Positions 3,019-22,754 of a stretch of DNA of 23,096 bases are shown in pieces. This DNA comes from Calditrichota bacterium (GTDB lineage Bacteria; Calditrichota; Calditrichia; RBG-13-44-9; J042). Below the pieces are notes generated by a model. It was not told the origin of the DNA and did not search any database. It saw nothing but the letters and a program-made list of their open reading frames with translations. The translations under genes and the position numbers were made by a program. Location of the stretch: assembly GCA_013150955.1 (NCBI GenBank), contig JAADJD010000033.1, forward strand, positions 1 to 23,096. Direction: 5' to 3'. The first letter of the stretch is position 1. Every line of letters begins with the position of its first letter.

Positions 3019-3025
3019 GTATCCG

Positions 3026-3097
3026 CTCCGGCGGCAGGACTCGAACCTGCAACCTAGTGGTTAACAGCCACCCGCTCTACCATTGAGCTACGCCGGA
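3026..3097 (-). tRNA. tRNA-Asn (anticodon GTT)
   Basis: A 72-nt cloverleaf read on the minus strand. The acceptor TCCGGCG pairs with CGCCGGA, with discriminator G. The D arm is GCTC-AATGGTA-GAGC, the anticodon arm GGTGG-CTGTTAA-CCACT, the variable loop AGGTT, and the T arm GCAGG-TTCGAGT-CCTGC. The anticodon GTT reads AAC/AAT. CCA is not encoded (GCGG follows), so it must be added after transcription. It has its own promoter and terminator, and its 3' half is the source of the three downstream fragments. Confidence 0.96.
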
Positions 3098-3122
3098 GTA
3101 TGCATCGTTTTAAACGGCAACA

Positions 3123-3151
3123 AATATATAGTTCCTTCACCCGGCAGTCAA
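3123..3151 (-). promoter_or_regulatory. Sigma70-type promoter of tRNA-Asn
   Basis: On the minus strand, TTGACT (3146-3151), a 17-base spacer and TATATT (3123-3128). Predicted transcription start is near 3116, giving a leader of about 19 bases. It lies directly behind the thyX stop codon. Confidence 0.7.
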
Positions 3152-3159
3152 TAAAATTT

Positions 3160-4113: not shown

Positions 4114-4232
4114 TCTCTCACTTCGTTTTGTTCATTGAATTGGTCGGAAAATAGAAAGATTTGGGGACATACGCAACGGATTCTTCAGTCGATTAAAATC
4201 AGTGGGTGCCGGGTAAAAAAATCTCTTTTTCT

Positions 4233-4261
4233 TTGGTGCTTTATTCCAGTTTATGTAAATT
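4233..4261 (+). promoter_or_regulatory. Weak candidate promoter for serC
   Basis: TTGGTG (4233-4238), 17-base spacer, TAAATT (4256-4261). The -35 is a poor match. Placed about 48 bases before the serC ATG in the gap divergent from thyX. Confidence 0.25.
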
Positions 4262-4308
4262 AGCGACGAGGCAAAACATGTGAACCACCAAAGAGAAGGA
4301 GAGAGTAT

Positions 4309-5391: not shown

Positions 5392-5399
5392 AAATCCCC

Positions 5400-5433
5400 G
5401 TGGCCGATAGCCTCCCATTGGGGTATCGGCCGC
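5400..5433 (+). terminator. Hairpin after serC, terminator or attenuator
   Basis: GGCCGATA (5402-5409) pairs perfectly with TATCGGCC (5424-5431); the stem extends to 10 bp with a G-T pair, and CCC/GGG can pair inside the loop. No T run follows, so intrinsic termination is uncertain; it may instead protect the serC mRNA end. Confidence 0.45.
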
Positions 5434-5514
5434 TTCATAACGGAAGGAATGGACCCGCTTCGATAAGCATTTCCACTTAAACATTCCTGAAAATCATTGA
5501 TCCAGGAGGCCTGC

Positions 5515-7341: not shown

Positions 7342-7348
7342 CCCGGTT

Positions 7349-7554
7349 AAACCCGGATTATGCAATAGACCACGAATTGCACGAATTAACACAAATTATG
7401 CAATAGCCTACGAATGACACGAATTAGCACAAATAAAACCAATAAAATACTTTGGATTGTGTCTGGATGAAAATGTGTTCCGGGGTTTATTCGCGATTTT
7501 GTAGATATTATTTGGTTTAATTCGTGTGATTCGCGGTTAAATGCATTTTTTGGG
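7349..7554 (+). repeat. Interspersed MITE-like element, copy 3 with duplicated left end
   Basis: The left end (ATTATGCAATAG..CCACGAATTGCACG) occurs twice in a row, at about 7356 and 7394, then a full core with CTGGA/TCCGG arms, GGGTTTATTCGCGATTTTGT and a right end GTGTGATTCGCGGTTAAATGCA. It starts 8 bases after the amylase-type stop codon. Confidence 0.78.
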
Positions 7555-7688
7555 ATTAACACAAATAAAAATAATCAAATACATTAGAACGGATCTGAAT
7601 GAAAATTTATTTCGGGGTATATTCGCGATTTTGTGGATATATCTTGGTTTCATTCGCGGGATTCGTGGTTTAACGCATTATTTGGTCT
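7555..7688 (+). repeat. Interspersed MITE-like element, copy 4 (left end truncated)
   Basis: Starts inside the left arm (ATTAACACAAATAAAA), abutting copy 3, and ends with a GATTCGTGGTTTAACGCATT right arm. The core hairpin arms are CTGAA and TTCGG, a paired change relative to the CTGGA/TCCAG of the other copies. With copy 3 it fills the whole gap between the amylase-type gene and dnaE. Confidence 0.72.
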
Positions 7689-7727
7689 AAATCGGGGACT
7701 CGTGCGGCAAACATTCGTGCAAGCGGA

Positions 7728-10700
7728 TTAGCCGTCCAGTTCGGGAAGGGAGGTGGGGAGCTGGCGGAGCCGGGCTTCCAGATCGGCCTTGCGCAGTTCC
7801 ACCACTTCCAGCTGTTCCACCAGCAGATTGGCCTCGCCGGGGAGGCGGGACTGGACGGTACCCACAATCCGGTAGGGGCCATACCCTTTGATCAGGTGGC
7901 CAAAACGGGCATACGTCTGAGGGAATAGCACCGCCTCGCACAGCCCGTACCGATCTTCCAGCGTGAGAAATTTCATGTATTCCTGGTTCCGTGTTTTAAC
8001 CCGCCGACTGGTCACCAGCCAGCCCACAAAAACTACCCGTTTCCCACGGGCTTGCTCCAGATCCACCGAAGGGGTGACTTCCTCCCAATCGATTTCTTCT
8101 TCGAAAAGAGCCAGGGGATGATCGGTAACCGCAAAATCCAGAATCTCCAGCTCATTTAGAATGCGCTGGTACTTGTTGTAAGGCGTCAGGTGAACATTCT
8201 CCAGCAGAGTTTCGGTCAGATTCCGATTGCGCTTGTGTTTAAAAAATAGTTTGTTTTTCAGCAGGCAGAGCGGTTCGTTGGGTTCCAGAGATCGCAGCGC
8301 GCCACATTTAATTAAATGGTACACCTCTTTTTCCCGTGGTTGTACCCGGCGGACAAAATCGTAGTAATCCCGATAGGGCCCGCTCTGGCGTTCGTTCAGA
8401 ATGCGCTGCAGGGTTTTTTCGGTCAATTCATACACCCGGGATAGTCCCACCTGGATGGCATTCCCGCGTGCCGTAAAATCTCTTTCGGAGCTGTTCACAT
8501 CCGGAGGCAGCAGGCGAATTCCCATGCGGCGGCATTCTTCCACGTAGGCCGCAGTGGAATAAAAACCGCCCTGATTGTTGAGCACCGCGGTCATATACTG
8601 CACGGGAAAATAGTATTTTAAATAGGCCGTCTGGTAGGCAATGGTGCCATAGGTAGCAGAATGGGCCTTGTTAAAGCCGTAGCCCACAAAATTGGCCAGG
8701 AATTGCCAGATGTTCTCGGCCTGCTGGCGGGTGAGCCCGTTGCCCATGGCCCCCTCGATGAAGGCGCGATGCATGCTCAGCAGCGTTTTGCGGTCGCGGG
8801 ATTTGGTCATGGCTTTGCGGAGAATATCCGCCTGCGCCAGGGTGAAGCCGGCCACCTCGGCGGCAACCTGCATCACCTGCTCCTGGTAAATGATGTTTCC
8901 GTAGGTGTCCTCCAGTACTTTCTTCAGGGCCGGATGCGGGTATTCCACGGGAGCCCGACCGGCGCGCCGCAGAATGTAGAGGTCTTTCATGCCGCTGTTG
9001 GCGGCTCCGGGGCGGATTAAGGCAACGGCGGTGATCACGTCGTCTACCCCGTCAATCTGCATCTTGCGCAGCAGCCCGCGCATGCCTGGACTTTCCGTCT
9101 GGAAACAACCCATACTCAGCCCTGCGCGCAGCAGGGCAATCACATTGGGGTCGTTTTCGGGAATGACCCGCAAATCCAGCGGCGACAGGTGACGCTTGCG
9201 GCTATCCAGAAATGGAAATCGGTGCGGAGTGAGGTAGGTTGCCGCTTCTTCCTTCACAATGCACTTTTGGGCCACGTCGAAGCGATAAACTTCCGCAGGT
9301 GGCGTGGGACGAGGCGGTAGAGGATGTGGCGTGGGAGCGGACGATCGAAATAACGGGAGATCCCCGGAAACAGTTGGGCCGTTATCTTCAGAGACCGGTG
9401 CCGAAGGGGCGGAGGAAATGCCCTGCAGCTGCTGGTAAAGTTGCCGTACCATGGTCAGGCAATCCGTGATAATGCTGAGGGATCGCACTCCCAGAAGATC
9501 CATCTTAACCAGGCCCAGGGGTTCAATGGAATACATGTCGTACTGGGACACCACAATGCCCTTTCCGGCCACCTGCAGCGGGGTGTAGCGGGTGATTCGA
9601 TCCGGCGCAATGATTACCCCTCCCGGATGGATGGACTGGTGCCGTGGAAAGTCTGCAATGCGCCGGGCCATTTCCAGCACCTGGCGGAACAGATCGGAGT
9701 GGTGGCGCAGATGTTTGCATTCCGGCAGTTGCTCGATGGCTTCCTGCAGTCGGGAAATGCCATAATGGGGCAAATACCGGGTGATGGCGCCGATCTCGTC
9801 TTCCGGTAACCCGTACACCCGTGCCACATCCCGAATGGAAGAGCGCAACTGAAAGGTGGTGAAGGTACAAATCATCGCGGTGCGCTCGGTGCCGTATTTC
9901 TGATAAACGTACTCCAGCACCCGGTCCCGGTTTTTCCAGCAGATGTCCAGATCGATGTCCGGTGGATCGGCACGGTCGGGGTTCAGGAACCGTTCAAAAT
10001 ACAGATGGTAGCGCATGGGATCAACCTGGGTGATGCCCAGAACGTAGGAGACCAGGCTATCCCCTGCGGAACCGCGTCCTACACAGGGAATGCCCTCCCG
10101 ATGGCAAAAATCCACAATATCCTTCACAATCAGAAAATAGTCTGAAAATCCCAGTCGATTGATGATGTGCAATTCGTAATTCAGGCGGTCGATCAGTGCC
10201 TGGGTCATGGACGGATACCGTTCTCGCGCGCCTTCAAAGGCCAGCTTCTTCAGGTAGGAAAAGGAAGTTTCCCCGGCGGGAAGATCAATCCGCGGGAAAA
10301 TGGGCTTTCCCAGCGAAAATTCAAACTGACATTGTCGGGCAACTTTGACCGTATTCTGCAGGGCGTCCGGGAATGCGGCAAACAGCCGGTGCATTTCTTC
10401 GGCCGTTTTTAAATATTGCTCTGGACTCCCAGCGGTGGTAACCTGAGGCAGCAGCGTGTTTTGATCGATGGCATGGAGTACCCTGCGCGTGGGGTGATCG
10501 TCGGGCGTTAGCAGGTGCACGTCGTTTGTGGCCACCAGAGGAATGCGGTGCTGAATGGCCAGATCGCGAAGGCGGAGGTTGGTGAGCCAGTCATCTTTGG
10601 AAAACATCTGAAGTTCAATCAGAAAGTAGGGGCCAAATACCCGCTTCATCTGGCGACAGTATTGCTGGGCTGCGGAAATGTTACGGGAATGGGCCATTTG

Positions 10701-11093
10701 CCACAGTGTGCCTTTCTGTCCACCGGACAGGACAAACAGCCCCTCCTTATGACGGAAGACATCGCGGAGTTGCAATTCAAAATGTAAGTGCCCGCCGCGT
10801 AAATGGCCCAGGGAGATCAATTCACAGAGGTTTTGATATCCTTCAGAATTCCGGACCAGCAACAGCAGCTGGCTACCATCCACCAGGCGGATTTCTGCCC
10901 CGATGATCGGGTGCAGGCCGGCTTCCTTTGCCAGACGGTAAAATTCCACCGCACCGTAAAGGCCATTATGATCGGTCAGTGCCAGGTGACGAAATCCCAG
11001 TTGCTTTGCCCGCTGAACCAGTTGTTCCGGGCTGGGGATGCCGTCCAGCAAGCTGTAGTAGCTATGTACGTGCAGATGAACAAATGCCGTCAT
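7728..11093 (-). CDS. dnaE: DNA polymerase III alpha-type (C-family) polymerase, possibly an accessory DnaE
   Basis: Template-directed DNA polymerase of 1121 residues. The PHP domain starts at residue 5 (HLHVHSYYSLLDG, LTDHNGLYG, TNDVHLL); its His/Asp metal ligands look intact, so it could have proofreading exonuclease activity. Palm: GRGSAGDSLVSY (339-350); catalytic Asp D379 and D381 in PPDIDLD and D532 in VKMDLLG. FQTESPGMRGLL and GYGFNKAHSATYG are conserved further on. The OB domain is near 1010-1090. A Pro/Ser-rich insert (about 558-601) contains DLPLF, resembling a clamp-binding peptide. The GDS in the palm motif (usually AGS/ANS) and the RPGAANSGM block depart from textbook DnaE1, so this may be a DnaE2/ImuC-like second polymerase; no imuA/imuB is adjacent. 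Starts ATG 11093. Confidence 0.9.
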   Translation of the reverse strand: MTAFVHLHVHSYYSLLDGIPSPEQLVQRAKQLGFRHLALTDHNGLYGAVEFYRLAKEAGLHPIIGAEIRLVDGSQLLLLVRNSEGYQNLCELISLGHLRGGHLHFELQLRDVFRHKEGLFVLSGGQKGTLWQMAHSRNISAAQQYCRQMKRVFGPYFLIELQMFSKDDWLTNLRLRDLAIQHRIPLVATNDVHLLTPDDHPTRRVLHAIDQNTLLPQVTTAGSPEQYLKTAEEMHRLFAAFPDALQNTVKVARQCQFEFSLGKPIFPRIDLPAGETSFSYLKKLAFEGARERYPSMTQALIDRLNYELHIINRLGFSDYFLIVKDIVDFCHREGIPCVGRGSAGDSLVSYVLGITQVDPMRYHLYFERFLNPDRADPPDIDLDICWKNRDRVLEYVYQKYGTERTAMICTFTTFQLRSSIRDVARVYGLPEDEIGAITRYLPHYGISRLQEAIEQLPECKHLRHHSDLFRQVLEMARRIADFPRHQSIHPGGVIIAPDRITRYTPLQVAGKGIVVSQYDMYSIEPLGLVKMDLLGVRSLSIITDCLTMVRQLYQQLQGISSAPSAPVSEDNGPTVSGDLPLFRSSAPTPHPLPPRPTPPAEVYRFDVAQKCIVKEEAATYLTPHRFPFLDSRKRHLSPLDLRVIPENDPNVIALLRAGLSMGCFQTESPGMRGLLRKMQIDGVDDVITAVALIRPGAANSGMKDLYILRRAGRAPVEYPHPALKKVLEDTYGNIIYQEQVMQVAAEVAGFTLAQADILRKAMTKSRDRKTLLSMHRAFIEGAMGNGLTRQQAENIWQFLANFVGYGFNKAHSATYGTIAYQTAYLKYYFPVQYMTAVLNNQGGFYSTAAYVEECRRMGIRLLPPDVNSSERDFTARGNAIQVGLSRVYELTEKTLQRILNERQSGPYRDYYDFVRRVQPREKEVYHLIKCGALRSLEPNEPLCLLKNKLFFKHKRNRNLTETLLENVHLTPYNKYQRILNELEILDFAVTDHPLALFEEEIDWEEVTPSVDLEQARGKRVVFVGWLVTSRRVKTRNQEYMKFLTLEDRYGLCEAVLFPQTYARFGHLIKGYGPYRIVGTVQSRLPGEANLLVEQLEVVELRKADLEARLRQLPTSLPELDG

Positions 11094-11223: not shown

Positions 11224-12570
11224 TCAGTCCCGCTCGTAGGTCAGGGCCTCGTGGCAACCCGGCTGGCAGGTCCCCCCGTTCTTTTTAAACTGAAATTTGA
11301 TGGGCATCTCCCATTTACCGAAAGGCACGTGAGCCGGGATGAGCCTGGGACGTTCCGCTCCATGCACGTTGTGGCAATTGCGGCAGGTACGCCCTTTTTT
11401 CTGATTGATGTGCAGGTAGTGCAGGTTTCGCCGTCCGTCCCGAAAATCGGTGATGTCGGAATCCACGATGGGGGCCAGCATCATTTCAGAATCGTGGCAC
11501 CCGAAACACAATTCGTAATTTTCCACCCGCGGTTCGGCGTAATTTTTTCGGGGGAAGGTGCTTTCCAGCAGGGCCGCATAGGGGGCGCCATGGGGCTGGT
11601 GGCACACCACGCAGCCATCGGATTCCAGGGGTTCGTGCAAGTAATTGCTTTGCTCCACCACCTTTTGAATATTGGCAATTGTTCGTCCATCCACTTTGAT
11701 CTTCTGATTGTGACACTCGAAACACAGGTTTTTCTGGCTATTGGTCAGCAGGGTTTCCACGTTGCTGCTGTGGGGCGAATGGCAGTTTAAGCAGGATTTC
11801 TTATCAAACACCGGCGAATGCTTCACCGGGGACGTTTTGGCGGTTTCCTGCACATCGTCGTGGCAATCATAACACAGGGTGGGAACTTTTTCCACCAGCA
11901 GGGATGGGAAGGTGCTACCATGGGGTTCGTGGCAGTCCTGGCAATCCTCTTCGAAGGGCGGGTGCAGGGTGGCCATTCCCGCCTGTTCTTCGACTTCGGA
12001 ATGGCAACTGAAACACAAACCGGGTTTGGGTTCCTGCAACAGGGCCTGGGTGTCGGATTCGTGTGGATTGTGGCAGGAAGTACATTCTCCCGCTTTTACC
12101 GGTCCGTGCAATACCGGCAGTTCCTGAAAATCCAGGTCGTGACAGTCCTGACACAGACTATCGATAGAGGCGTAGGCCAGGAAGAACTTGTTGGGCGAGC
12201 CGTGGGGATCGTGACAGGTCAGGCAATCGCCATCTTCTACCGGAGAGTGCACTACCGATCTGGTATTGTTCTCGTCGTGGCAGGAATAGCACAGGTCCGG
12301 CGGGTCTTCCGAAAGGGAATATTCCGGGCCTTCGGCGGTTGGGTGCGGATTGCCATTGCTTTCGTGGCAGGTGGTGCAATCGTCTTCCAGTGCATCGTGC
12401 ACGTAACGACGTTCCAGAATGCTGGCATGGCACTGGGCATTGCCGCAGTCTTCGGGATCGATGGTCACTTCCTGCGCGGGTTCCTGGGAAAACAGAGGGG
12501 AGCCCAGCAGCATCACTCCCAGCCCGATGGCAAACAAAACGGTTTGTGCAAATGCCGGTTTATTTTTCAA
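11224..12570 (-). CDS. Large multiheme c-type cytochrome, up to 15 hemes
   Basis: Exported electron-transfer protein, 448 residues. The signal peptide ends near residue 28 (GSPLFSQ). Thirteen CXXCH motifs lie between 65 and 400, spaced as DPH/EPH/NPH-type doubled-CXXCH repeats (e.g. CLTCHDPHG, CTSCHNPHE). Two unusual sites flank them: CX4CH at 42-48 (CGNAQCH) and CX3CH at 435-440 (CQPGCH). The start is TTG at 12570, supported by GGAGG six bases upstream; its TTGA overlaps the stop of the barrel gene, implying translational coupling. Position last in the conduit operon, large size and high heme density fit the outer-face partner of a porin-cytochrome complex; that placement is inference. No lipobox is seen. 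No clear terminator follows. Confidence 0.92.
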   Translation of the reverse strand: MKNKPAFAQTVLFAIGLGVMLLGSPLFSQEPAQEVTIDPEDCGNAQCHASILERRYVHDALEDDCTTCHESNGNPHPTAEGPEYSLSEDPPDLCYSCHDENNTRSVVHSPVEDGDCLTCHDPHGSPNKFFLAYASIDSLCQDCHDLDFQELPVLHGPVKAGECTSCHNPHESDTQALLQEPKPGLCFSCHSEVEEQAGMATLHPPFEEDCQDCHEPHGSTFPSLLVEKVPTLCYDCHDDVQETAKTSPVKHSPVFDKKSCLNCHSPHSSNVETLLTNSQKNLCFECHNQKIKVDGRTIANIQKVVEQSNYLHEPLESDGCVVCHQPHGAPYAALLESTFPRKNYAEPRVENYELCFGCHDSEMMLAPIVDSDITDFRDGRRNLHYLHINQKKGRTCRNCHNVHGAERPRLIPAHVPFGKWEMPIKFQFKKNGGTCQPGCHEALTYERD

Positions 12571-14531
12571 AAGTCCCTCCGAATGCGTAAGTAAATGCCA
12601 TTGTAATCCGCCCGTTCACCAATGAAACGGCGTTTGTAAAATTCCACACCAAGGATGTAAGTCAGCTGGCGGTAGCGGGTGCGGAATTCCGCCCGCGCAC
12701 TGTACAGGTCCAGATCCAGGCCTTTGCCCCGATGGATCCGCAGGCCACCATCAAAATTCAGTGCCGTACGGACTCCCAGCCAGTAGGTCATCTTCCCGGA
12801 AATGTCCTTCATGGTCTGGCGTTCCTGCTCACGGGTCAGCAAATAATCCCGAAAATTCCCGGTAACGGCCAGATCAATTTTACTGAAAAAAGTGCCCATC
12901 AGGTTGACAAAAAACCGTTTTTCGATGTACGGCAGAATGTTACTCTGATAATCCTCGTATTCGTAACCTGCGGAGATAAACGCGAAATTGATCTGCCCGC
13001 CGTAACTCATTTGATCAATGTATTCCAGGATGCGCGGCGTTTCGATGCGGATATTGGAATGATCCTGCTTCAGGGTGGAATAGTGCAGTTCCAGCAAGTT
13101 GTAAAACAGGCTGATTTTGGCTCCAAAAAAGCGCGATTGGGTGTCGTAGCGATAAGAAACGGGCAATCGGGAAATATAGTCCACCAGCACGGTTGCCCCG
13201 TTGGGAATTTGTCCCCCCGGAATGCGCTGAATTTCCAGAAATTCCCCGCGGGGGATCAGGATGTAGTCCAATCCCTCCTGGTACAAAATGGTACCGCTGG
13301 CATCGGTGACCACCACGGAGGCCGGATCCACCAGGGGATTTTTCAGCAGGGTGGTTCGATCATCCCGCAGCACAATTTCCTCATCCACAATCCGCAGCAG
13401 GCCGGGTTCACCGCTGCGTTCATCCCGCCGCATTCGATATTCGTATTCCAGTTGCAGTTTGCCGGTGGGGATTTTCTTCTGGTAATTGAAAGATACGCCG
13501 GCCGTGGGCACCCGATCGCGATAATCGATATGATCGGCAGCAAAATAGCGAATGTACGCCTTGCTGATCAGGCTCAGGTAAAGCCGGTGTTGCAGCGAGG
13601 CATTGATCATATTCAAATCGGAATGGTAATTGGGCTGCTTGATGTGGGAATACTGATAGTTGGTGTTAAACGTGAAATTGTATTTTAATTCCAGATTCAG
13701 ATCCTGGAATGCCAGTAGCCGATCCAGCTCGGTAAAGCCGCGCTGTCGGTAGTACCAGATTGACGAGGTGTACAACGAGGGACGGGCCAGTTTGAATGGG
13801 ATGCGGCTGTTCAGCTTCAAATTATCGATACGGGAAGAAATGGTCAGGAAGCCGGTATAGTCCCGATCGTAAATTTCGTGGGTGTAGCGAATGACGTGGG
13901 CATCCTCTCCCTTAAACGATCGGCTGGCCTCGGCAAAATAGGTGGTTTTGTAATTGAGAAATGTGCGGCCGGTGTCGATTTCCTTCTGATCCCATTTGTC
14001 CTCGTAATATTTCAGTTGCAGGGGAAGCAGGGGATTCTGGATGAAAACCCCGGCAATTTTGGACCGCCGAATGGTTTCCACATTGGTTAACAATTCGCGA
14101 TTGATAAAATCGTGTTGAAACCGGTAGGAGCCGGTCAGACGAATGGGGGCACGGCGCAACAGCGTCATGTTAATGGAATACCGTTTGGCGGTGCGGGTTT
14201 CCGTGCGGTCGGGAAAGACCAGGAATTTATCCTCCTGGCTAATCGGTTGATAGCCCCCTTCCAGGTCCAGCAACAGGAAATTGGGATGAATGATGTAATT
14301 TTTGGCGCGAATGGAAAATTCCCCCAGCAATTTTTTACTCTGTTGTTCCTCAAAGCGGTTGGTTCGGAAGTACGATTCGCGCGTGCGGTAGAACCCCTCC
14401 ATCTGAAGGAATCCCCGCAGGGAGATAATCTTCCACCAGCTCAGGGAGTAGCGATAGGCCTGGGCAAACAACCCTTCGCAGAAAATCAGGACAATTAACA
14501 GGCCAATCGATGTCCGCAGTCGAGCGCTCAT
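12567..14531 (-). CDS. Outer-membrane beta-barrel protein, probable conduit porin
   Basis: 654 residues with a signal peptide ending near FAQA (residue 25) and a C-terminal Phe (RIRRDF), the usual Bam recognition ending. The body is a run of alternating polar/aromatic strands rich in Tyr, Arg and Phe (such as LEYEYRMRRDE and YGGQINFAFISAGYEY), as in large barrels. There is no CXXCH and no TonB box. A compact soluble segment at about 382-454 (VVVTDASGTILYQEG, LDYILIPRGEF, GGQIPNGATVLVDY) interrupts the strands and may be a plug or periplasmic domain. It overlaps its neighbours by 4 bases on both sides (ATGA upstream, TTGA downstream) and lies between two cytochrome genes. This is the arrangement expected of a porin that houses a heme wire. 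Not recognisable as a named porin family. Confidence 0.85.
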   Translation of the reverse strand: MSARLRTSIGLLIVLIFCEGLFAQAYRYSLSWWKIISLRGFLQMEGFYRTRESYFRTNRFEEQQSKKLLGEFSIRAKNYIIHPNFLLLDLEGGYQPISQEDKFLVFPDRTETRTAKRYSINMTLLRRAPIRLTGSYRFQHDFINRELLTNVETIRRSKIAGVFIQNPLLPLQLKYYEDKWDQKEIDTGRTFLNYKTTYFAEASRSFKGEDAHVIRYTHEIYDRDYTGFLTISSRIDNLKLNSRIPFKLARPSLYTSSIWYYRQRGFTELDRLLAFQDLNLELKYNFTFNTNYQYSHIKQPNYHSDLNMINASLQHRLYLSLISKAYIRYFAADHIDYRDRVPTAGVSFNYQKKIPTGKLQLEYEYRMRRDERSGEPGLLRIVDEEIVLRDDRTTLLKNPLVDPASVVVTDASGTILYQEGLDYILIPRGEFLEIQRIPGGQIPNGATVLVDYISRLPVSYRYDTQSRFFGAKISLFYNLLELHYSTLKQDHSNIRIETPRILEYIDQMSYGGQINFAFISAGYEYEDYQSNILPYIEKRFFVNLMGTFFSKIDLAVTGNFRDYLLTREQERQTMKDISGKMTYWLGVRTALNFDGGLRIHRGKGLDLDLYSARAEFRTRYRQLTYILGVEFYKRRFIGERADYNGIYLRIRRDF

Positions 14532-15112
14532 CGTTCAATCCGGGTTAAGTAAAATTTGTTGTTTTCGCCATGGGGATTGTGGCACACCTGACAATCCATT
14601 TCCATTTTATCCCGGTGCGCCTCGGTGGTGGCCAGACGATTTTGATCATGGCAGAACAGACAGAGCTCCTGTTTGACTCGCTTTAACAGTTGGGGATTTT
14701 TCGTCATGTGCGGATTGTGGCACGCGGTGCAATTGCCAGAGGCCACCGGGCCGTGTAAATAGTTAAATCCTTCGGAAAAGTCGTCGTGGCAGCCGTAGCA
14801 TAGGTCAGGTTGCGGTTCCAGCAGCCGGTTGCCCCGATCCAGGTCGTGGCAGCTATCGCATTCCTTGTCCCGATATGGGGGGTGAAAGGAGTACTCAATT
14901 TTAGGCCGGCGCATCTGGGCCAGCATTTCGCGCCGCTTGGCCAGGGTTAACGTGTCTGGAAGTTGAACCTGTTCTTGTTGGCCGGGTGGGGGAACCCCAT
15001 CGAAAAGGGTGGAAAGGATCTTGTAGCGCGTGTCAGGCGAACAGGCCACTAAGGAAGACAACAGCACTACCGTTAAAACACCGCAGAGCTGCCGGAAATA
15101 TCTTCCATTCAT
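14528..15112 (-). CDS. Pentaheme c-type cytochrome lipoprotein
   Basis: 194 residues with a lipoprotein signal ending SSLVAC, lipid Cys24. After a Pro/Gln-rich linker to about residue 75, five CXXCH sites follow: 85-89, 105-109, 128-132, 151-155 and 174-178. Three are followed by the NPH/DxH pattern of doubled-CXXCH cytochromes (CTACHNPHM, CQVCHNPHG). Starts 11 bases after the upstream NHL gene and ends overlapping the barrel ATG. Probable role: the periplasm-side (or inserted) electron donor to the barrel complex, by analogy with porin-cytochrome conduits where a smaller cytochrome partners the porin. Which membrane face it sits on is not determined by sequence. Confidence 0.92.
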   Translation of the reverse strand: MNGRYFRQLCGVLTVVLLSSLVACSPDTRYKILSTLFDGVPPPGQQEQVQLPDTLTLAKRREMLAQMRRPKIEYSFHPPYRDKECDSCHDLDRGNRLLEPQPDLCYGCHDDFSEGFNYLHGPVASGNCTACHNPHMTKNPQLLKRVKQELCLFCHDQNRLATTEAHRDKMEMDCQVCHNPHGENNKFYLTRIER

Positions 15113-15123
15113 TGATTTTCCGC

Positions 15124-16209
15124 TTATTCATTCTTCGGTTCAACAAATCCATAAATATTAATCTTATCCGGCCCATATTGGTTGGTAACAAGAACAAGGT
15201 ATTTCAAATTGAAATCCGGGTCCACGTACTTCTGAAAGTATTCCAGATTGTCGTAATCAATGACCACTTTGGCTGGCAGCCACATAAATCCCGGCCCCTT
15301 GTAGGGTCCGCCAAAAAACATCAACAGTTTGCCGTCCTTGTTAAAAATCTGAATGGTCTCAAAACCGGCGTCCACCACGTATAGGTTCAGATCCCGATCC
15401 ACTGCCACGCCTTTCGGTCGGACAAACTGTCCCAGGGCTTTTCCATAACTGCCCACGGAACCAATGTACTCTCCTTCCAGGGTGTAGATTTTTACTTTAA
15501 AATCCCCGAAATCCGATACATAAACCCGCCCGTCCTGAATGTCCAGGTTCGTGGGAGAAAATAAAAACTGCTTGGTACCCGGTTTGGCATCGGGAAAGGA
15601 GAAAATGAGCTTCCGCGTTTTTTTGCTGTAAACTTTTACTTTGTGTTGTTTAATGTCCACCACCCAGATGCGGTCATTAAAAATTTTTACATCCGAGGGC
15701 TTGGAGTTTCTTTCGCCCCCGATGGCCCCTGCGTATTTTAGATTGGGATCGTAAATAACCACCTGCCGGCGTTCCGAATCGGCCACGTAGAGGTAGCCAT
15801 CTTCGTCCAGAGTACAATTGATCGGTTTGCGAAGTTGTCCCCGTCCATGCGGTTTAAAATAGCGAAAAGTTGCTTTTTTTAAATCGATGATTTCCAGCCC
15901 CCGCAACATGGTGTCGCAGATGTAAATGACCCCATCCCGAATCGCAATGCCGTATGGTTTGATGATAGGCAATCCGGGATCTTCACCCAGGATGTACTTA
16001 ATAATCCCTTTGCGCTGTCCAACAATGTCGATGGAGTTGCTGATTTTGGTCAGGAATTGGATGCGAGCGGTATCGGGTGGGGGTGGGAATACAATACTTT
16101 CCTGATATTCCGGGAGTTTATGATAACGGGAAATACAACTACTGAAAAAGAATGCTGCCAGAATTCCAAGCAGAAGAAACCATGCCGTTTGCCGTTTCCG
16201 CGGTAACAA
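15124..16209 (-). CDS. NHL-repeat beta-propeller lipoprotein
   Basis: 361 residues from my preferred start, TTG at 16209, which follows GAGGAGAG by about 11 bases and gives a compact lipoprotein signal ending FFFSSC (Cys25). An in-frame ATG at 16263 would add 18 residues, but it lies inside a terminator hairpin and spoils the signal. About six NHL-type blades follow, each with a KP.G..-type start and a YV.D....IQIF-type end, for example RPKGVAVDRDLNLYVVDAG. It is paralogous to the NHL gene at the other end of the island. NHL propellers are interaction scaffolds; here one may bridge filament or cytochrome subunits to the conduit. First gene of the tight four-gene conduit set. Confidence 0.88.
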   Translation of the reverse strand: MLPRKRQTAWFLLLGILAAFFFSSCISRYHKLPEYQESIVFPPPPDTARIQFLTKISNSIDIVGQRKGIIKYILGEDPGLPIIKPYGIAIRDGVIYICDTMLRGLEIIDLKKATFRYFKPHGRGQLRKPINCTLDEDGYLYVADSERRQVVIYDPNLKYAGAIGGERNSKPSDVKIFNDRIWVVDIKQHKVKVYSKKTRKLIFSFPDAKPGTKQFLFSPTNLDIQDGRVYVSDFGDFKVKIYTLEGEYIGSVGSYGKALGQFVRPKGVAVDRDLNLYVVDAGFETIQIFNKDGKLLMFFGGPYKGPGFMWLPAKVVIDYDNLEYFQKYVDPDFNLKYLVLVTNQYGPDKINIYGFVEPKNE

Positions 16210-16240
16210 GGTTCTGTATCTCTCCTCTGTTTTGCGATTG

Positions 16241-16277
16241 AAAAATAGGGGACAATTGAACATTGCCCCCTATTTTT
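16241..16277 (-). terminator. Intrinsic terminator between the tetraheme gene and the NHL lipoprotein gene
   Basis: Perfect 11-bp inverted repeat AAAAATAGGGG / CCCCTATTTTT, with CAAT/ATTG pairing within the loop. A T run ends the arm on either strand, so it can act both ways. It starts 34 bases past the tetraheme stop codon. Partial read-through would give more tetraheme than conduit message. Confidence 0.85.
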
Positions 16278-16310
16278 GTCTGCTCATCCAGGCGCTGTGA
16301 GTATACTACG

Positions 16311-16934
16311 TTATTTCGCATGGCAAGTCAAGCACAAATCACTATTGGCGTTGGACTTGACTAACAGTTTTGCCACACCGCTGCCGTTGTGCACGTCATG
16401 GCAGGACGAGCATTCCAGCTTGTGGTTCACCAGCATGTCTTCGTCGATGGTGCCGCCCAGACCGGACTGCGCCGTGGTCGGATCATACAGTTCGCCGTCC
16501 GCGCTGGCCAGAGCTGCGTCATATACGAAGGAGACCGGATGGTCATCCCGCATATCGGTGCCTAAGTTCTCATCGCCTGTGATGTAAGTGGTACCGCTGG
16601 TCTTGCCACCGAAGTTGTCCAGAGCGACCGTGCCGTCATGGCAGCTCAAGCACAGCTTGGATACGCCATCAGGCTGACCCACCGTCGCGTCCAGAGTCGA
16701 GCTGGTATAGGGGGTGAAGGTTGCCGACGTCACTTCATGGTTCCACAGGGGTGCATCCGTCACCGTAATGTCTGCATGGTGCGGGGTGTGGCAAACCACG
16801 CAGATCTCACCGGTGGGGTTCCAGGTTTCACCGGAAAAGTCATGCGGAGAACCCACGATCGTTTGAGCATTCGCCATGAAAACGGAGAGGAAAAGTACCA
16901 GAAGACTGATTAAGAAGACCTTGGACAATTTCAT
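16311..16934 (-). CDS. Tetraheme c-type cytochrome, OmcE-like in size and heme count
   Basis: 207 residues with a clear Sec signal peptide cleaved after ANA (residue 23). Four CXXCH sites are at 45-49, 95-99, 175-179 and 201-205. Seven other His residues (H31, H52, H53, H66, H132, H171, H182) can supply the four distal ligands for bis-His hemes. The blocks TSSTLDATVGQPDG, LCLSCHDGT and DDHPVSFVYD recur in the N-terminal domain of the 12-heme protein of this island. ATG 16934 follows AAGGAGGAG. It has its own upstream sigma54-like element and downstream terminator, the pattern of a highly expressed structural subunit. Geobacter OmcE is also a tetraheme, filament-forming cytochrome; that this one polymerises is inference. 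Confidence 0.93.
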   Translation of the reverse strand: MKLSKVFLISLLVLFLSVFMANAQTIVGSPHDFSGETWNPTGEICVVCHTPHHADITVTDAPLWNHEVTSATFTPYTSSTLDATVGQPDGVSKLCLSCHDGTVALDNFGGKTSGTTYITGDENLGTDMRDDHPVSFVYDAALASADGELYDPTTAQSGLGGTIDEDMLVNHKLECSSCHDVHNGSGVAKLLVKSNANSDLCLTCHAK

Positions 16935-16979
16935 CTTGCTCCTCCTTGTTATTTAATTAAATGTTTCACAAATTTAAAA

Positions 16980-16996
16980 TACAATAATGATGCCAA
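16980..16996 (-). promoter_or_regulatory. Sigma54-like -24/-12 promoter of the tetraheme gene
   Basis: The minus strand reads TTGGCATCATTATTGTA. The -24 GG and -12 G are correctly 10 bases apart; the -12 is GT rather than GC. Predicted start near 16970 gives a 36-base leader carrying AAGGAGGAG. An NtrC-type sigma54 activator is encoded just upstream. Confidence 0.6.
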
Positions 16997-17110
16997 TAAT
17001 TGAATTCGGGAAACAATTTCCAAAATTGCACTTAATTGAGTGAAAATAATGAAGTTAAATAGGAGTGATGAGTCGCGGCCACCATGGAAATCCCCTCGGG
17101 TCAACCCCGG

Positions 17111-17150
17111 GTGGGTGATATTTCCCACCCGGGTGGGGAATATCACCCAC
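17111..17150. promoter_or_regulatory. 40-bp near-perfect palindrome, candidate enhancer for the sigma54 activator
   Basis: GTGGGTGATATTTCCCACCC (17111-17130) abuts its inverse at 17131-17150 with one mismatch. It resolves into two 18-bp dyads GGGTG-N8-CACCC, at 17113-17130 and 17131-17148. It starts about 115 bases upstream of the sigma54-like promoter, the usual distance for an activator site, and its edge overlaps the regulator's stop codon. No T run follows, so it is not a standard terminator. Confidence 0.55.
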
Positions 17151-18532
17151 TAACCGGCTTGAAGCTTGTATTTCTTAATCTTATACCGCAGCGTGTCTCT
17201 TGAAATTTTCAACAACTTTGCCGCGCGGGATTTGTTGAACTGGGTTTTCCGTAATGCTTCCTGAATGATGATCTTTTCCATTTCGGGCAGGGAAATGTCC
17301 GATTCCAGAATGGTGCGGATGCATTGGCTAACCCGCGAATCGTCCGTGGTCACGTGCTGTTTTAACTCCGCTGGAAGACTGTCCACCCCGATGTACTCAT
17401 CTTTTTCCAGGATCACCATGCGCTCGATGATGTTGCGCAGTTCCCGCACGTTTCCCGGCCAGTGATAATTTTGCAATACCTTGATGGCCTCGTCTGTCAA
17501 ACCTTTAATCTGTTTGCGGAACTGGTGGTTGAAGTAACGGATAAAATGATCGGCCAGCAGGGGGATGTCCTCCCGGCGTTCCCGAAGCGGCGGCAGGTTG
17601 ATCTGAAACACTTTCAGGCGGTAGTAGAGATCTTCCCGGAACGTGCGATTGCGCACCGCCTCTTCCAGATTTTTGTTGGTGGCGGCAATGATGCGCACAT
17701 CCACCTGCAAATCTTCGGTGCCGCCCACACGGCGGAAGGTTTTGTTTTCGATGAATTGCAACAGTTTGACCTGGGTGGATGGGTTAATCTCGCCAATCTC
17801 GTCCAGGAAGACGGTACCTCCGTCTGCAATCTCGAACAATCCCTTTTTTTGCTGTTTGGCGTCCGTGAAGGCACCTTTTTCGTGGCCGAACAGTTCGCTT
17901 TCCAGCAACGTTTCCGGCAGCAGGGAACAGTTGATCACCACGAACGGTTTGTCCCGGCGAGGGCTTTCACCATGAATGATCTTGGCCAGCAAGTCTTTTC
18001 CGGTGCCGCTTTCTCCCAGGAGAAGTACCGTGGTGGCCTGCGAGTGGGCAATCTCCCGCGCAAATCCCAAAATTTCCTGAATGACCTGTGATTTGCCAAT
18101 GAAGTGATCAAAGGTGAAATCCTGGGGATGCTGGCGCTTGAGAACCTGGATTTCCCGATCGAGTTGAATTTTTTTTTCGATGTTGTCCAGAATGACGTCG
18201 ATTTCGTCGAAGGTAAATGGTTTGTTGATGTATTCGTAGGCGCCCGATTTCATGGCCTGAATGGCGGTCTCGATCGTGCCGTAAGCCGTCATGAAAATGA
18301 TGAACGAATTGTCTGAAATATGCCGCAATTTCTTCAACACTTCCAGTCCCTGCATGCCCGGCAATTTGTTGTCCAGGAAAATGATCTCTGGCAGATGCTT
18401 TTCGAAGAGTTTGATCCCTGCCTCGCCGGTTTCGGCCAGGTACACCTGGTAACCTTTCTGGTCCAGATGTTTTTTAAAGGACCAGCGAATCAGATTTTCA
18501 TCGTCAATTACCAGGACTTTGAGTTTTGGCAT
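17150..18532 (-). CDS. NtrC-family sigma54-dependent response regulator
   Basis: 460 residues in three domains. The receiver (1-120) has the acid pocket D10/D11, phospho-acceptor D54, T82 and K104. The AAA+ sigma54-activation domain (about 140-380) has Walker A GESGTGKD (173-180), the sigma54-contacting loop GAFTDA (220-225; D in place of the usual G), Walker B VFLDEIGE (241-248) and WPGNVREL. The C-terminal Fis-type helix-turn-helix includes NKSRAAKLLKISRDTLRYKI. It starts 17 bases after the kinase stop, behind GGGGAGAG. It would open the sigma54-like promoter of the tetraheme gene after phosphorylation by the adjacent kinase; the 40-bp palindrome at its 3' end is the likely binding site. 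Both targets are inferred. Confidence 0.96.
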   Translation of the reverse strand: MPKLKVLVIDDENLIRWSFKKHLDQKGYQVYLAETGEAGIKLFEKHLPEIIFLDNKLPGMQGLEVLKKLRHISDNSFIIFMTAYGTIETAIQAMKSGAYEYINKPFTFDEIDVILDNIEKKIQLDREIQVLKRQHPQDFTFDHFIGKSQVIQEILGFAREIAHSQATTVLLLGESGTGKDLLAKIIHGESPRRDKPFVVINCSLLPETLLESELFGHEKGAFTDAKQQKKGLFEIADGGTVFLDEIGEINPSTQVKLLQFIENKTFRRVGGTEDLQVDVRIIAATNKNLEEAVRNRTFREDLYYRLKVFQINLPPLRERREDIPLLADHFIRYFNHQFRKQIKGLTDEAIKVLQNYHWPGNVRELRNIIERMVILEKDEYIGVDSLPAELKQHVTTDDSRVSQCIRTILESDISLPEMEKIIIQEALRKTQFNKSRAAKLLKISRDTLRYKIKKYKLQAG

Positions 18533-18549
18533 TGCTTGGTCTCTCCCCG

Positions 18550-20052
18550 CTAAATTTTGATTGGTATTTCGATCGTAAATCGGGTCCCCTTGTTTTTCTT
18601 GCTTTCTACCGAAATCGTTCCCCCATGCCGTTCAATGATATCCCGCGCAATGGCCAATCCCAGTCCCGTACCCTGATGCTTGGTGGTAAAGAATGGTTTA
18701 AAAATCTTGTCCAGATGTTCTTCCGAAATGCCCACCCCATTATCCTCGATGATAATGGCAACCCGATCTTTGGAGTCCGCCAGCCGGGTTTCCAGCACCA
18801 CCCGTCCCGTGGACGGAATGGCCTGAATGGCGTTGATCACAAAGTTGGAGATGGCGTTTTCCATCTGGTTGTAATCGAATTTGAATGCCGGGATCCGGTG
18901 GTCCAGCTTTAACACGAATTCTATCTGCTTGTCCTCGGCTTGCGTTTGAACGGTTCGCTTGATGGAAATGAGCAGCTGGTTAATATTATTGGTTTCCAGG
19001 CACAGTTTGATCGGTTTGGAAAACTGGAGCAAATCGTTAATCGCCTTGTTGACCCGAATGGTCTGGTACTGAATTTCCTTCAGAATCGTTTCCTTTTCAG
19101 GATCATCAATGTCCGATGCCAGGATGTTCAGCGCATTGACAATGCCCGTCAGGGGATTCTTGATTTCGTGGGCAAAGCTGGCGGCCATTTCTCCCACCGT
19201 GGCCAGCTTCTGGGTGTTCATCAATTCCCGACGATGGTAGTCTTCAATCTTGCTTTGATATTCCTGTAGCTTATCCAGCGTCTGATTGAACTGTCGGGCC
19301 AACAAACCCAGTTCGTTTTTCTCCGGAATGTCAATCCGGTGGGTCAAATCTCCCCGTTCAATATACTGAAAGGTTTCAATAAATCGATTCAATGCCAGTT
19401 TGATGTAGCGGTAGTGCAGAAATCCAATGGTGGTGAAAATGATGACCACCAGGGAAAAGGTAAACACCCGACCGAAGTTTTTTGTGTCCGCAATGTATTT
19501 TTCGATTTCCTCCGCAGAGAAATCGATGATTAAGTATCCCAGAACCGCGTTGTTGGGGGAATGGCAATCGTAACACACTTTGTCATTCTTGATTCGAATG
19601 GTGGTGCGGAAAAAATGGGAATCACTATTCCCCAGTTCCCGAATATCGATGGAATCCACATCCAGGACGTACTCCGGGATTTCGTTGATGGCCAATCGCT
19701 GAAAGTCCGTTCGATGGGGATAAACCGGATGTCCATTGCGGTCAATTAAATAAACGTTCAATACGTTGGGATTTTCACTGAGCTTATCCAGCAGGGAAAA
19801 GATGATTTTTGATTTTTCTTCATCCATCAAATAAAGGTATTGGTCTTTAAGAATCGAGACCAGAGACTTCAGATTGTTGGAATTGCACTGATGCAGCTGG
19901 CGGTCCAGGTGGGCGGTGAACAGTTGAAAGGCCACAAAGCCAATGATGGCCACAATAACTGTTACCGTCACCACAATTTTAAACCGAAAACTGTGGTACA
20001 GGGACAAAAACGGAAATCGTTTAATAAGATTTTGGACTATGTCTTTCGCCAT
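18550..20052 (-). CDS. Sensor histidine kinase with periplasmic c-heme (CXXCH) site
   Basis: 500 residues from ATG 20052, chosen because GGAG precedes it; an upstream TTG at 20097 is less likely. TM1 is at about 24-45 and TM2 at 195-215, with a periplasmic sensor of about 150 residues between. Near the end of the sensor is CYDCH (160-164), a c-type heme motif, within DKVCYDCHSPNN. A HAMP domain (216-268), the HisKA phospho-acceptor H295 in FAHEIKNPLTG, the N box NFVINAIQAI and ATPase boxes DNGVG, FKPFFTTK and GTGLGLA follow. NtrB-like catalytic core. The gene overlaps the upstream cytochrome by 32 bases and is followed by its NtrC-type partner. A covalently bound heme would make it a redox or gas/ligand sensor on the side of the membrane where the cytochromes work. 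Confidence 0.95.
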   Translation of the reverse strand: MAKDIVQNLIKRFPFLSLYHSFRFKIVVTVTVIVAIIGFVAFQLFTAHLDRQLHQCNSNNLKSLVSILKDQYLYLMDEEKSKIIFSLLDKLSENPNVLNVYLIDRNGHPVYPHRTDFQRLAINEIPEYVLDVDSIDIRELGNSDSHFFRTTIRIKNDKVCYDCHSPNNAVLGYLIIDFSAEEIEKYIADTKNFGRVFTFSLVVIIFTTIGFLHYRYIKLALNRFIETFQYIERGDLTHRIDIPEKNELGLLARQFNQTLDKLQEYQSKIEDYHRRELMNTQKLATVGEMAASFAHEIKNPLTGIVNALNILASDIDDPEKETILKEIQYQTIRVNKAINDLLQFSKPIKLCLETNNINQLLISIKRTVQTQAEDKQIEFVLKLDHRIPAFKFDYNQMENAISNFVINAIQAIPSTGRVVLETRLADSKDRVAIIIEDNGVGISEEHLDKIFKPFFTTKHQGTGLGLAIARDIIERHGGTISVESKKNKGTRFTIEIPIKI

Positions 20053-21739
20053 GGCACTCCAGATAACATTCTCCCCGAAAATCCCCTTTGTCGACAAATT
20101 CCAGTCGCCCGGTGCGTGGATCCGGGGAAACGACTGAAATGTCGAAATTAATTAAATGGGAATGATTGGTGCTGTTGCCCTGTGAGAAGCTAATCCCATG
20201 GGGATCGTGGCAAACATTACAGGGAACATCTTCTCCGACAATGTGTTTACGGTGAACCTTTTTGTAAAACTTGCCACTATTTCCACCCATGCCACCCATA
20301 TTTCCGATTACCGTGCTGCGATCATGGCACTGGTAGCACAGCTCATACGCCTGATATGATTCCTGGGTATAATCGGCGGTTTCGTAGCGATATTTCAAGA
20401 TTCGGGGGTAAACGGAGCCGTGGGGACCGGCCGGTGCTCCCGCACCATCGCTGGCATGGCAGTCGGTGCAATAGATGATGCTGGATTCGGTCAATGGTGA
20501 AATCAGGCTGGGGACGTTGTTGTTTTTCCCCGGCGCTTCGATGGGATGATAGGACGGGTTCGAAGGGTCGAATTCCAGTCGAACATTATCCTGTTCAATC
20601 TGCCGCTGGGTGGGACTGGCCGGTTTATCGGGACTGTCTGCATGACAGCGGTAACACAACTCATATTGAAACTGGATGTCAGAAACCGGATTTCCGTTGC
20701 TGTCCACGCCTTTTACGCCCATGATGAATCCATTGGCATTGGGTGCCGAAGCGCTGGCCTGTTGAACGGCATGAGGATTATGGCAGTCTTCGCACTCCAC
20801 ATGCCGAACCTGCACCACGGCTTCTTCCAGCTCATCATGCACCTGATTGTACGCCGAAACGTCGTGCCGATAGGGTTTATTCAACTGGGATTGAATATCC
20901 GTACTGGCCACATTGCCGTTGTGGCAGTTCAGGCAGTTTTGTTCTTCGGTCAGGTAGTTCAGCAGACGTTCACGGCCCTCCGCATTGTGGGGATTGTGGC
21001 AGTTTTCGCAGGCATTTTCCGAAACCGTGCTGTAGGGCGTGTGGAACCAGGGATCGTTTCCACTGCCATTCCAGGTGGCGCTGGAATTTTTATGGCTGCT
21101 ATTTTCCCAGTAATTCTTTTGATGGCAATACATGCACAGTTCGGAATATTTTGAGGGGGCCACCAGAAAATCTCCGTAAATATCATGATGCGGATCGTGA
21201 CAGGAATTGCACTGCAGGCGATCGTTTTCCAGCTGCACCGGACCGGTAAGCGTGGCCGGATCCACCAGTTCGCCATCGGATGTGGCCAGAGAAAGGTCGT
21301 AAACAAACGAGATGGGATGATCATCCGACAGATCCGTGGTGAGGTTGGTATTCCCGGGAGGCATGGTCGTCACCCCGCCCTGGAATGCGATGGGCTCGTC
21401 CCGGCTGAGCACGGCCCCCAGGGCAATGGTACCATCGTGGCAGGACAGGCACAGGAGCGATGCCCCATCCGGTTGACCGGGAACCGCCTGCAGGGTCGAG
21501 CTGGTGTACAGGGTGTAGTAACTGCCGGGATCCGGGCGATTCCACAAGGGCTGCCGGGGACTCTTCGAATGGGGAGTGTGGCAAAAAATGCAAATTTCGC
21601 TCTCGCTCTCCGCTTTGATGGTGCCCGGTCCGCTGACAGATAGATTGTGCACCGTGTTCACGATAGATTGAGACAAACCGGTCTGAAATAAGAACAACAG
21701 AAAGGTGCTCATGATTATGTCAATGTATTGTCTATTCAT
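20021..21739 (-). CDS. Multiheme c-type cytochrome, up to 12 hemes, with tetraheme-like N-domain
   Basis: 572 residues from ATG 21739, behind GGGAGGT; the frame extends upstream to 21796, but that start lacks a ribosome site and disrupts the signal peptide. The signal ends near GLSQ (residue 24). CXXCH sites are at 50, 97, 177, 202, 244, 269, 316, 362, 424, 468 and 507, plus a final CX3CH at 558-563 (CYLECH). Residues ~25-208 are homologous to the separate tetraheme cytochrome (TSSTLQAVPGQPDG, LCLSCHDGT, SDDHPISFVYD). The rest is a different eight-heme region with NPH motifs. It overlaps the NHL gene by 8 bases and the kinase by 32. Probable exported electron carrier or filament adaptor; no lipobox. 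Confidence 0.93.
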   Translation of the reverse strand: MNRQYIDIIMSTFLLFLFQTGLSQSIVNTVHNLSVSGPGTIKAESESEICIFCHTPHSKSPRQPLWNRPDPGSYYTLYTSSTLQAVPGQPDGASLLCLSCHDGTIALGAVLSRDEPIAFQGGVTTMPPGNTNLTTDLSDDHPISFVYDLSLATSDGELVDPATLTGPVQLENDRLQCNSCHDPHHDIYGDFLVAPSKYSELCMYCHQKNYWENSSHKNSSATWNGSGNDPWFHTPYSTVSENACENCHNPHNAEGRERLLNYLTEEQNCLNCHNGNVASTDIQSQLNKPYRHDVSAYNQVHDELEEAVVQVRHVECEDCHNPHAVQQASASAPNANGFIMGVKGVDSNGNPVSDIQFQYELCYRCHADSPDKPASPTQRQIEQDNVRLEFDPSNPSYHPIEAPGKNNNVPSLISPLTESSIIYCTDCHASDGAGAPAGPHGSVYPRILKYRYETADYTQESYQAYELCYQCHDRSTVIGNMGGMGGNSGKFYKKVHRKHIVGEDVPCNVCHDPHGISFSQGNSTNHSHLINFDISVVSPDPRTGRLEFVDKGDFRGECYLECHGERHSPKSY

Positions 21740-22754
21740 GGCTACCTCCCTGTAAAAATTCGAAGATTTGGATCCGTCCATTGTAAGAATCGGCAATATA
21801 AATCAGATCTTCGGAATCGATGTAAATGCCCAGGGGTAACCAGAACTGTCCCGCATCCCTGCCAGGTTCGCCAAAGTAAAAAAGAAAGTCTCCCTCTTTA
21901 TTGAATAATTGTATCGCGTTAAACAAGGCGTCAACAACATAAATGTGGCCATAGGAATCGGTCGCAATTCCTTTGGGCCTGGCGAAGTAACCGGTCGCGT
22001 CTCCTATGGAACCGAACATCGTAATCCATTCTCCACTGCTCTTAAATAATTGTACCCTAAAGTTCATAGAATCCACTACATAAACTGTGCCATTTTGGTC
22101 GATATGGATGAATGTGGGGAAGTTGAATTCGCCCGGCCCGTTACCGCGCTGTCCCAGATAGCGAATCAGCCGGCCATGGGTGTTAAAGATGGCGATGCGG
22201 TGTTTACCGGTCTCTACTACCCATATCTGTTTGTTTTTATTTGAATAAGCAATCCCGGTAGGGCGGACCAGCTGGAGTGTATCATTGAATAGCTGGAAAG
22301 AAAGTGCCCCGGAATCCAGAATCAGGATCTGGCCGGTGGCAGAATCGGTGATGTAAATCTGATTGTCCGGTCCCTGAGCAATGCCAATCGGCGAGGGGAG
22401 CCGAAGGGGGGCAGAGGGACGCAGGTGGGTGATTTCACCCACCTGCTGGTTGATTTTCACAATGCAGTGATCGCCAGGATCGGTTATCCAGAGGTTATTC
22501 ATGGAATCTTTGATTAAAGAAGACGGGCGGATAAATATCTGCTGAGGAGATCCGGTTAACAGATTCTTCAAGCGGGAAAATAACGATGGTTTTTTGATTA
22601 CATCACTGCGCAGGGCAATCTGCGATTTCCAGCGAATAATCGGAGCGTTGTCGCCCGGAAACGTCTGGTCGCCTGCAAAAATTGTTGGCGATCCAAGGAA
22701 GAACAGAAAAAAGATCAAGTAATGTAGAATTTTGGCATACATGATTGGCGCCAT
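21732..22754 (-). CDS. Secreted NHL-repeat beta-propeller protein
   Basis: 340 residues with a hydrophobic signal segment (YLIFFLFFLGSPTIFAG). The start is uncertain: ATG 22754 or ATG 22742, neither with a strong ribosome site. About six NHL blades are visible from residue 75 on (for example RPTGIAYSNKNKQIWVVETG and FARPKGIATDSYGHIYVVDA). The last two blades resemble those of the NHL lipoprotein of the conduit set (YVVDA.F..IQ.FNK.G, F.FGEP, WLP), so the two are paralogs, but this one lacks a lipobox. First gene of the NHL-cytochrome-kinase-regulator operon. The sequence of the fourth blade's neighbours is regular. Its role is likely structural or partner binding; no enzyme motif is seen. Confidence 0.88.
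   Translation of the reverse strand: MAPIMYAKILHYLIFFLFFLGSPTIFAGDQTFPGDNAPIIRWKSQIALRSDVIKKPSLFSRLKNLLTGSPQQIFIRPSSLIKDSMNNLWITDPGDHCIVKINQQVGEITHLRPSAPLRLPSPIGIAQGPDNQIYITDSATGQILILDSGALSFQLFNDTLQLVRPTGIAYSNKNKQIWVVETGKHRIAIFNTHGRLIRYLGQRGNGPGEFNFPTFIHIDQNGTVYVVDSMNFRVQLFKSSGEWITMFGSIGDATGYFARPKGIATDSYGHIYVVDALFNAIQLFNKEGDFLFYFGEPGRDAGQFWLPLGIYIDSEDLIYIADSYNGRIQIFEFLQGGSHE
22421..22446. promoter_or_regulatory. 26-bp perfect palindrome inside the NHL gene, sharing the regulator-site half
   Basis: Arms GCAGGTGGGTGA and its complement flank TT. The GTGGGTGAT half matches the ends of the 40-bp palindrome at 17111-17150. It lies in coding sequence, about 310 bases inside the gene, so it may be chance or a downstream site for the same regulator. 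Confidence 0.3.

Follow-up and report, generated by a model that had tools for sequence, protein, structure and literature searches.

The question raised by this locus of a Calditrichota bacterium is what kind of extracellular electron transfer system its multiheme cytochromes and outer-membrane barrel belong to. The window analysed (23,096 nucleotides) is the entire contig, and NHL1 is the outermost locus gene on its side. An ORF check of the window placed nine ORFs between positions 11224 and 22754, all co-oriented on the minus strand and transcribed in the order NHL1, C12, HK, RR, C4, NHLlp, C5lp, barrel and C15 (Table 1). The four cytochromes contain 36 possible heme sites (33 CXXCH and three variant motifs), and the kinase adds one more; the nine co-oriented genes and about 36 cytochrome heme sites of the original prediction were thus confirmed by the ORF and motif check. 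The starts of C12 and HK are probably internal methionines (at about 21742 and 20052), the mechanical ORFs running to 21796 and 20097, respectively.

Genes from NHL1 to RR are closely spaced or overlapping, and those from C4 to C15 are also closely spaced. Since this tight packing is broken between RR and C4 by a 215-bp gap with promoter-like elements of its own, two operons are probable, NHL1-C12-HK-RR and C4-NHLlp-C5lp-barrel-C15. The 4-base overlaps described as chaining the pentaheme lipoprotein, the barrel and the 15-heme cytochrome proved exact at both junctions (ATGA for C5lp/barrel and TTGA for barrel/C15). The G+C content is 50.3% at the locus and 49.2% in the remaining window, and these near-equal values therefore give no sign of a compositional island. 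Ordinary neighbours were seen at window positions 3025-11093, namely a tRNA-Asn and, as read by eye, thyX, serC, an alpha-amylase-family lipoprotein and a DNA polymerase III alpha-type protein.

Table 1. Genes and control elements of the locus in transcription order (window positions).
Feature	Position	Strand	Basis or remark
NHL1, secreted NHL-repeat beta-propeller	21732..22754	-	Pfam NHL E 4.7e-35; recurrent C12 neighbour
C12, 12-heme cytochrome, OmcE-like N-domain and 8-heme C-part	20021..21742	-	7tfs_A match
HK, histidine kinase, CXXCH in periplasmic sensor region	18550..20052	-	HisKA, HATPase, HAMP
RR, NtrC-type response regulator, sigma54 activator	17150..18532	-	Response_reg, Sigma54_activat, HTH_8
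Tandem palindromes TGGGNNATATNNCCCA	17112-17127, 17134-17149	.	22 bp apart; probable RR enhancer sites
Sigma54-type promoter TGGCATCATTATTGTA	16980..16995	-	about 61 bp 5' of C4 start
C4, tetraheme OmcE-type nanowire subunit (by homology)	16311..16934	-	7tfs_A, 9yuq_N full-length homology
NHLlp, NHL propeller lipoprotein	15124..16263	-	Pfam NHL E 3.1e-14; lipobox FSSC
C5lp, pentaheme cytochrome lipoprotein	14528..15112	-	5 CXXCH, lipobox LVAC
Outer-membrane beta-barrel	12567..14531	-	AlphaFold2 pLDDT 92
C15, MtrA-like modular cytochrome	11224..12570	-	6r2q_A match, heme motifs

The identity of the locus is defined by C4. This protein, in which four CXXCH motifs and a hydrophobic N-terminal signal were read, matched the OmcE nanowire subunit over its full length (7tfs_A, residues 9-207, E 1.9e-26), as well as 9yuq_N, an entry annotated as putative multiheme cytochrome (full length, E 5e-24). 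In the alignment that includes OmcE (A1), all four CXXCH are invariant, and so are H31, H52, H132 and H182; hence, the four heme motifs and four further histidines of the Geobacter sulfurreducens protein (PDB 7TFS) are kept. This indicates that C4 is an OmcE-type nanowire subunit and, judging from the homology, that it would polymerise; the filament itself was shown in Geobacter and is predicted from homology for the Calditrichota locus. Between orders, C4 and C12 are also better conserved than any other protein of the cluster (67-76% and 60-71%, with 35-38% for the barrel). The original prediction had treated C4 as only one cytochrome among four. A role in Fe(III) oxide reduction is described for Geobacter OmcE (PMC12307469), and PMC11077965 presents the physiological roles of cytochrome filaments as contested even for Geobacter. 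Additional C4 paralogues were observed 3' of C15 in several loci (e.g. L017 14890, L021 712 and L022 6361), some of which have lost the CHTPH histidine (in the same three loci); these OmcE-like paralogues may be non-polymerising or capping variants.

The conservation of the gene order had been named beforehand as a check, and the order was kept across the class and the core across phyla. Relatives of C4 and C12 were present in 13 of the 39 genomes sampled and the barrel in 11 of 60 sampled relative genomes, the full gene order being repeated in several genera of the class; one genome has an extra copy devoid of HK-RR (L019), and the locus is likewise present in the Calditrichia genome G017 (L022), at 40% G+C. 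Searching named genomes with the OmcE alignment gave 80 loci, distributed over Calditrichota, Bacteroidota/Ignavibacteria, Desulfobacterota, Proteobacteria, Gemmatimonadota, Verrucomicrobiota and others. The barrel loci with enough flank (n=38) contained C4 in 37 cases, NHLlp in 36, C12 in 34, NHL1 in 30, C5lp in 29, C15 in 28 and HK-RR in 11, where the C4 count is biased upwards by the collection of loci through the OmcE alignment and the C12, C15 and NHL counts were not so chosen. A 15-heme relative near the barrel was not found in 10 of these 38 loci. The core, made up of OmcE, the two NHL propellers, the barrel and the 12-heme cytochrome, is also present in Bacteroidota, Desulfobacterota, Gamma- and Betaproteobacteria, where the 15-heme gene is often missing, and takes the lean form C4-NHLlp-barrel-NHL1-C12 in the last two groups. 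Together with the co-occurrence counts, this lean form indicates a primary tie of the barrel to the nanowire proteins and a secondary one to C15. The kinase-regulator pair is an insert, seen in Calditrichota and Bacteroidota/Chlorobiota loci.

This core make-up, including the lean form, matches the Uet pathway of Ca. Tenderia and Gallionella, which comprises a tetraheme and an 11-12-heme cytochrome, a beta-barrel and two NHL proteins (PMC10734462). The tetraheme protein, the 11-heme-class cytochrome, the barrel and both NHL proteins have counterparts in the Calditrichota locus, matched by composition alone, whereas the PPIase and triheme cytochromes of Uet have none among the nine genes, and the C5 lipoprotein, the MtrA-like C15 and HK-RR are additional. 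The OetABI conduit and the OmcS secretion block GSU2493-2500 (PMC10553843, PMC12977616) likewise place a porin and multiheme cytochromes beside a wire-forming cytochrome, but, compared by description, their wire subunit is OmcS-type and that of Calditrichota is OmcE-type. We therefore read the locus, with a probability of roughly 0.7, as an OmcE/Uet-type nanowire locus under inducible control by a heme-bearing two-component system, in which the filament is predicted from homology. Its components are already known from other bacteria, and the switch attached to them seems to have been added in this lineage.

The 12-heme count of C12 results from 11 CXXCH and one CX3CH (CYLECH), and the 15-heme count of C15 from 13 CXXCH, one CX4CH (CGNAQCH) and one CX3CH (CQPGCH). 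These three variant sites are invariant or nearly so in 32-42 orthologues, and both counts are therefore credible, as were the heme numbers originally given as 5 and up to 15. Residues 29-227 of C12 form a 4-heme OmcE-like N-domain (7tfs_A, E 1.4e-31); a structure model of only fair quality (pLDDT 66) matched 7tfs in the OmcE part only (Foldseek E 2.9e-6), and the Foldseek search with this model gave no usable match for the C-part. The heme cysteines and histidines and the distal histidines of C12 are invariant in 42 sequences. One tentative proposal, to which we give somewhat less than even odds, is that C12 acts as a nanowire adaptor that starts or ends the filament at the barrel, with the wire switched by the heme two-component system through a sigma54 promoter.

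At the outer membrane, lipobox-like motifs were found in 42 of 66 NHLlp orthologues and in 28 of 42 C5lp orthologues. The barrel, modelled with high confidence as a single chain, is very large, with about 28 strands, counted from its DSSP string, and an insertion at about residues 389-459; a C-terminal Phe is present in 9 of 11 sequences. Its sequence gave zero matches in a search against the PDB. A specific assignment by structure (Foldseek/VIA) was discarded, many large barrels being tied at Z of about 16-18. C15 matched the MtrA chain of the Mtr complex by profile (6r2q_A, E 1.2e-29) and scored 177.3 bits against TIGR03508, below the cut-off of 192.2. Most of its orthologues have between 8 and 25 CXXCH, as expected for a modular wire.

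The control elements lie in the gap before C4. The kinase has the heme motif CYDCH, and a CXXCH is retained by each of the 16 full-length kinases of the cluster, as is the GAFTDA loop by 17/17 of the cluster regulators listed. With rpoN encoded in the genome, the system has a receiver, an AAA+ sigma54 domain, an HTH, an adjoining kinase and a sigma54-type promoter, as in NtrC-type systems. The promoter element [TC]GGCAY-N5-TTGT[AT] stands 55-89 bp before the C4 start codon in 8/8 Calditrichia loci with an adjacent RR. A classical GG/GC sigma54 scan missed it because the clade has TTGTA where TTGCA is expected. Over the whole genome, YGGCAY-N5-TTGTW was counted 36 times (11 in the reversed control) and TGGCAY-N5-TTGCW 10 times (2 in the control); the sigma54 promoters of the clade may thus favour TTGTA at -12.

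The palindromes follow the consensus TGGG-N8-CCCA and are usually in tandem at 22-24 bp spacing, one locus having three degenerate copies; in Calditrichia the first is separated from the downstream promoter element by 149-166 bp. With up to one mismatch, 0.07 occurrences are expected per window, and the exact ATAT form occurs at three places in the 4.07-Mb genome, two of them before C4; the third, inside an ORF, was set aside. Exact palindromes were found in 11/20 loci where RR adjoins C4 and in 0/50 loci where it does not (Fisher 8e-8), and the promoter element in 11/20 and 3/50, respectively (Fisher 2e-5), both values being optimistic since the loci are not phylogenetically independent; letter-shuffled control regions gave 0.03 and 0.01 expected loci. 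Because the Calditrichia loci in which the motif was first spotted also belong to the set counted, fully independent support comes from fewer loci (L047, L049, L055 and L076 on the Bacteroidota/Chlorobiota side, plus L034). Several Bacteroidota loci that have RR are missing the exact palindrome. In one genome with two copies of the locus, the copy with HK-RR (L018) has palindrome and promoter and the copy without HK-RR (L019) has neither. No consistently conserved promoter or palindrome was found before NHL1 in the cluster loci compared. The predicted electron transfer locus with its own sensor and sigma54 regulator is thus supported, its regulator part being strengthened by the conserved promoter and palindromes.

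Two further observations concern regulation. A perfect inverted repeat inside NHL1 (GCAGGTGGGTGATTTCACCCACCTGC, window 22421-22446), one mismatch from the palindrome consensus, is possibly a further regulator site. A second locus of the same genome (L109, G000:C49, 1109-12857) encodes 19-, 17-, 17- and 4-heme cytochromes followed by a CXXCH histidine kinase and an NtrC-like regulator (42% to RR).

Could the locus instead encode an MtrCAB-like conduit only, with C15 passing through the barrel, C5lp serving as surface cytochrome, and C4 and C12 being soluble, non-polymerising extracellular cytochromes? The likeness of C15 to MtrA, the overlap of the C5lp, barrel and C15 genes, and the presence of MtrB among the tied top structural matches of the barrel (6r2q_B, Z 16.3 over 381 aligned residues, tied with unrelated barrels) speak for it, and MtrCAB (PDB 6R2Q) does share adjacent genes for an MtrA-like cytochrome and a large barrel. 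However, the barrel accompanies OmcE, NHL and C12 proteins more often than C15, it has no sequence match to MtrB, and C4 retains the OmcE ligand set. We consider this reading unlikely. Other differences from MtrCAB are that no decaheme MtrC-type surface protein was identified among the nine genes and that C15 has 15 hemes, not 10. A conduit of the MtrCAB or Omb/Oma/Omc type as the main identity, as originally predicted, is not supported as stated, the closest precedent being Uet/OmcE; a conduit role of barrel and C15, with a presumed contact between barrel and cytochrome, is plausible as one part of the system. For the control region, the alternative is that the palindromes form a terminating or attenuating hairpin downstream of the RR gene instead of regulator sites. 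They begin directly past the RR stop and the RNA fold is strong (region z -2.4), but no intrinsic terminator was called for the palindrome region, every copy is itself palindromic, the 22-24 bp spacing recurs in most loci (with three degenerate copies once), and the distance to the sigma54 element is near-constant. We consider the hairpin possible but unlikely.

As to the direction of electron flow, out or in, related systems have been proposed for both uptake and discharge. In an uptake version, compatible with the nanowire reading in all but direction, electrons would be drawn from minerals, electrodes or partner cells. Its core make-up is that of Uet in cathode- and iron-oxidising bacteria (PMC10734462), and the genome gave three heme-copper oxidase hits; on the other hand, these genes do not reveal direction, and Geobacter OmcE works in reduction of Fe(III) oxide (PMC12307469). 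Uptake is possible, and we put it at about one chance in three. An apparent Rieske/cytochrome b pair was observed next to 9-, 8(+3)- and 12-heme cytochromes in L108 (G000:C25, 7650-13253), and in L017 a comparable pair, accompanied by a 4-heme protein, is located directly upstream of NHL1 and could provide a quinol link to the nanowire locus.

Under the nanowire reading, C4 would be exported and polymerise into an extracellular wire, with C12 at the base or tip of the filament and its extra eight hemes coupling the wire to the cell. The barrel, the NHL propellers and the C5 lipoprotein would form an outer-membrane platform for export and anchoring, and the MtrA-like C15 would shuttle electrons between periplasm and barrel in the Calditrichota lineage. 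The kinase would sense through its periplasmic c-type heme, probably redox state or a ligand, and the phosphorylated RR would bind the TGGG-N8-CCCA pair and activate the sigma54 promoter of the C4-NHLlp-C5lp-barrel-C15 operon.

To our knowledge, the promoter and palindrome arrangement and the case for C12 as adaptor are new, as judged from a limited set of papers. Reviews regard it as unsolved how cytochrome nanowires are anchored and secreted and how electrons enter them (PMC12307469). If true, the adaptor role of C12 would address the question of how the filament is anchored and supplied with electrons. The core, held together over several phyla, provides a short and testable parts list with C12 as candidate adaptor, and the locus also contains a candidate on-switch whose DNA site is precisely defined.
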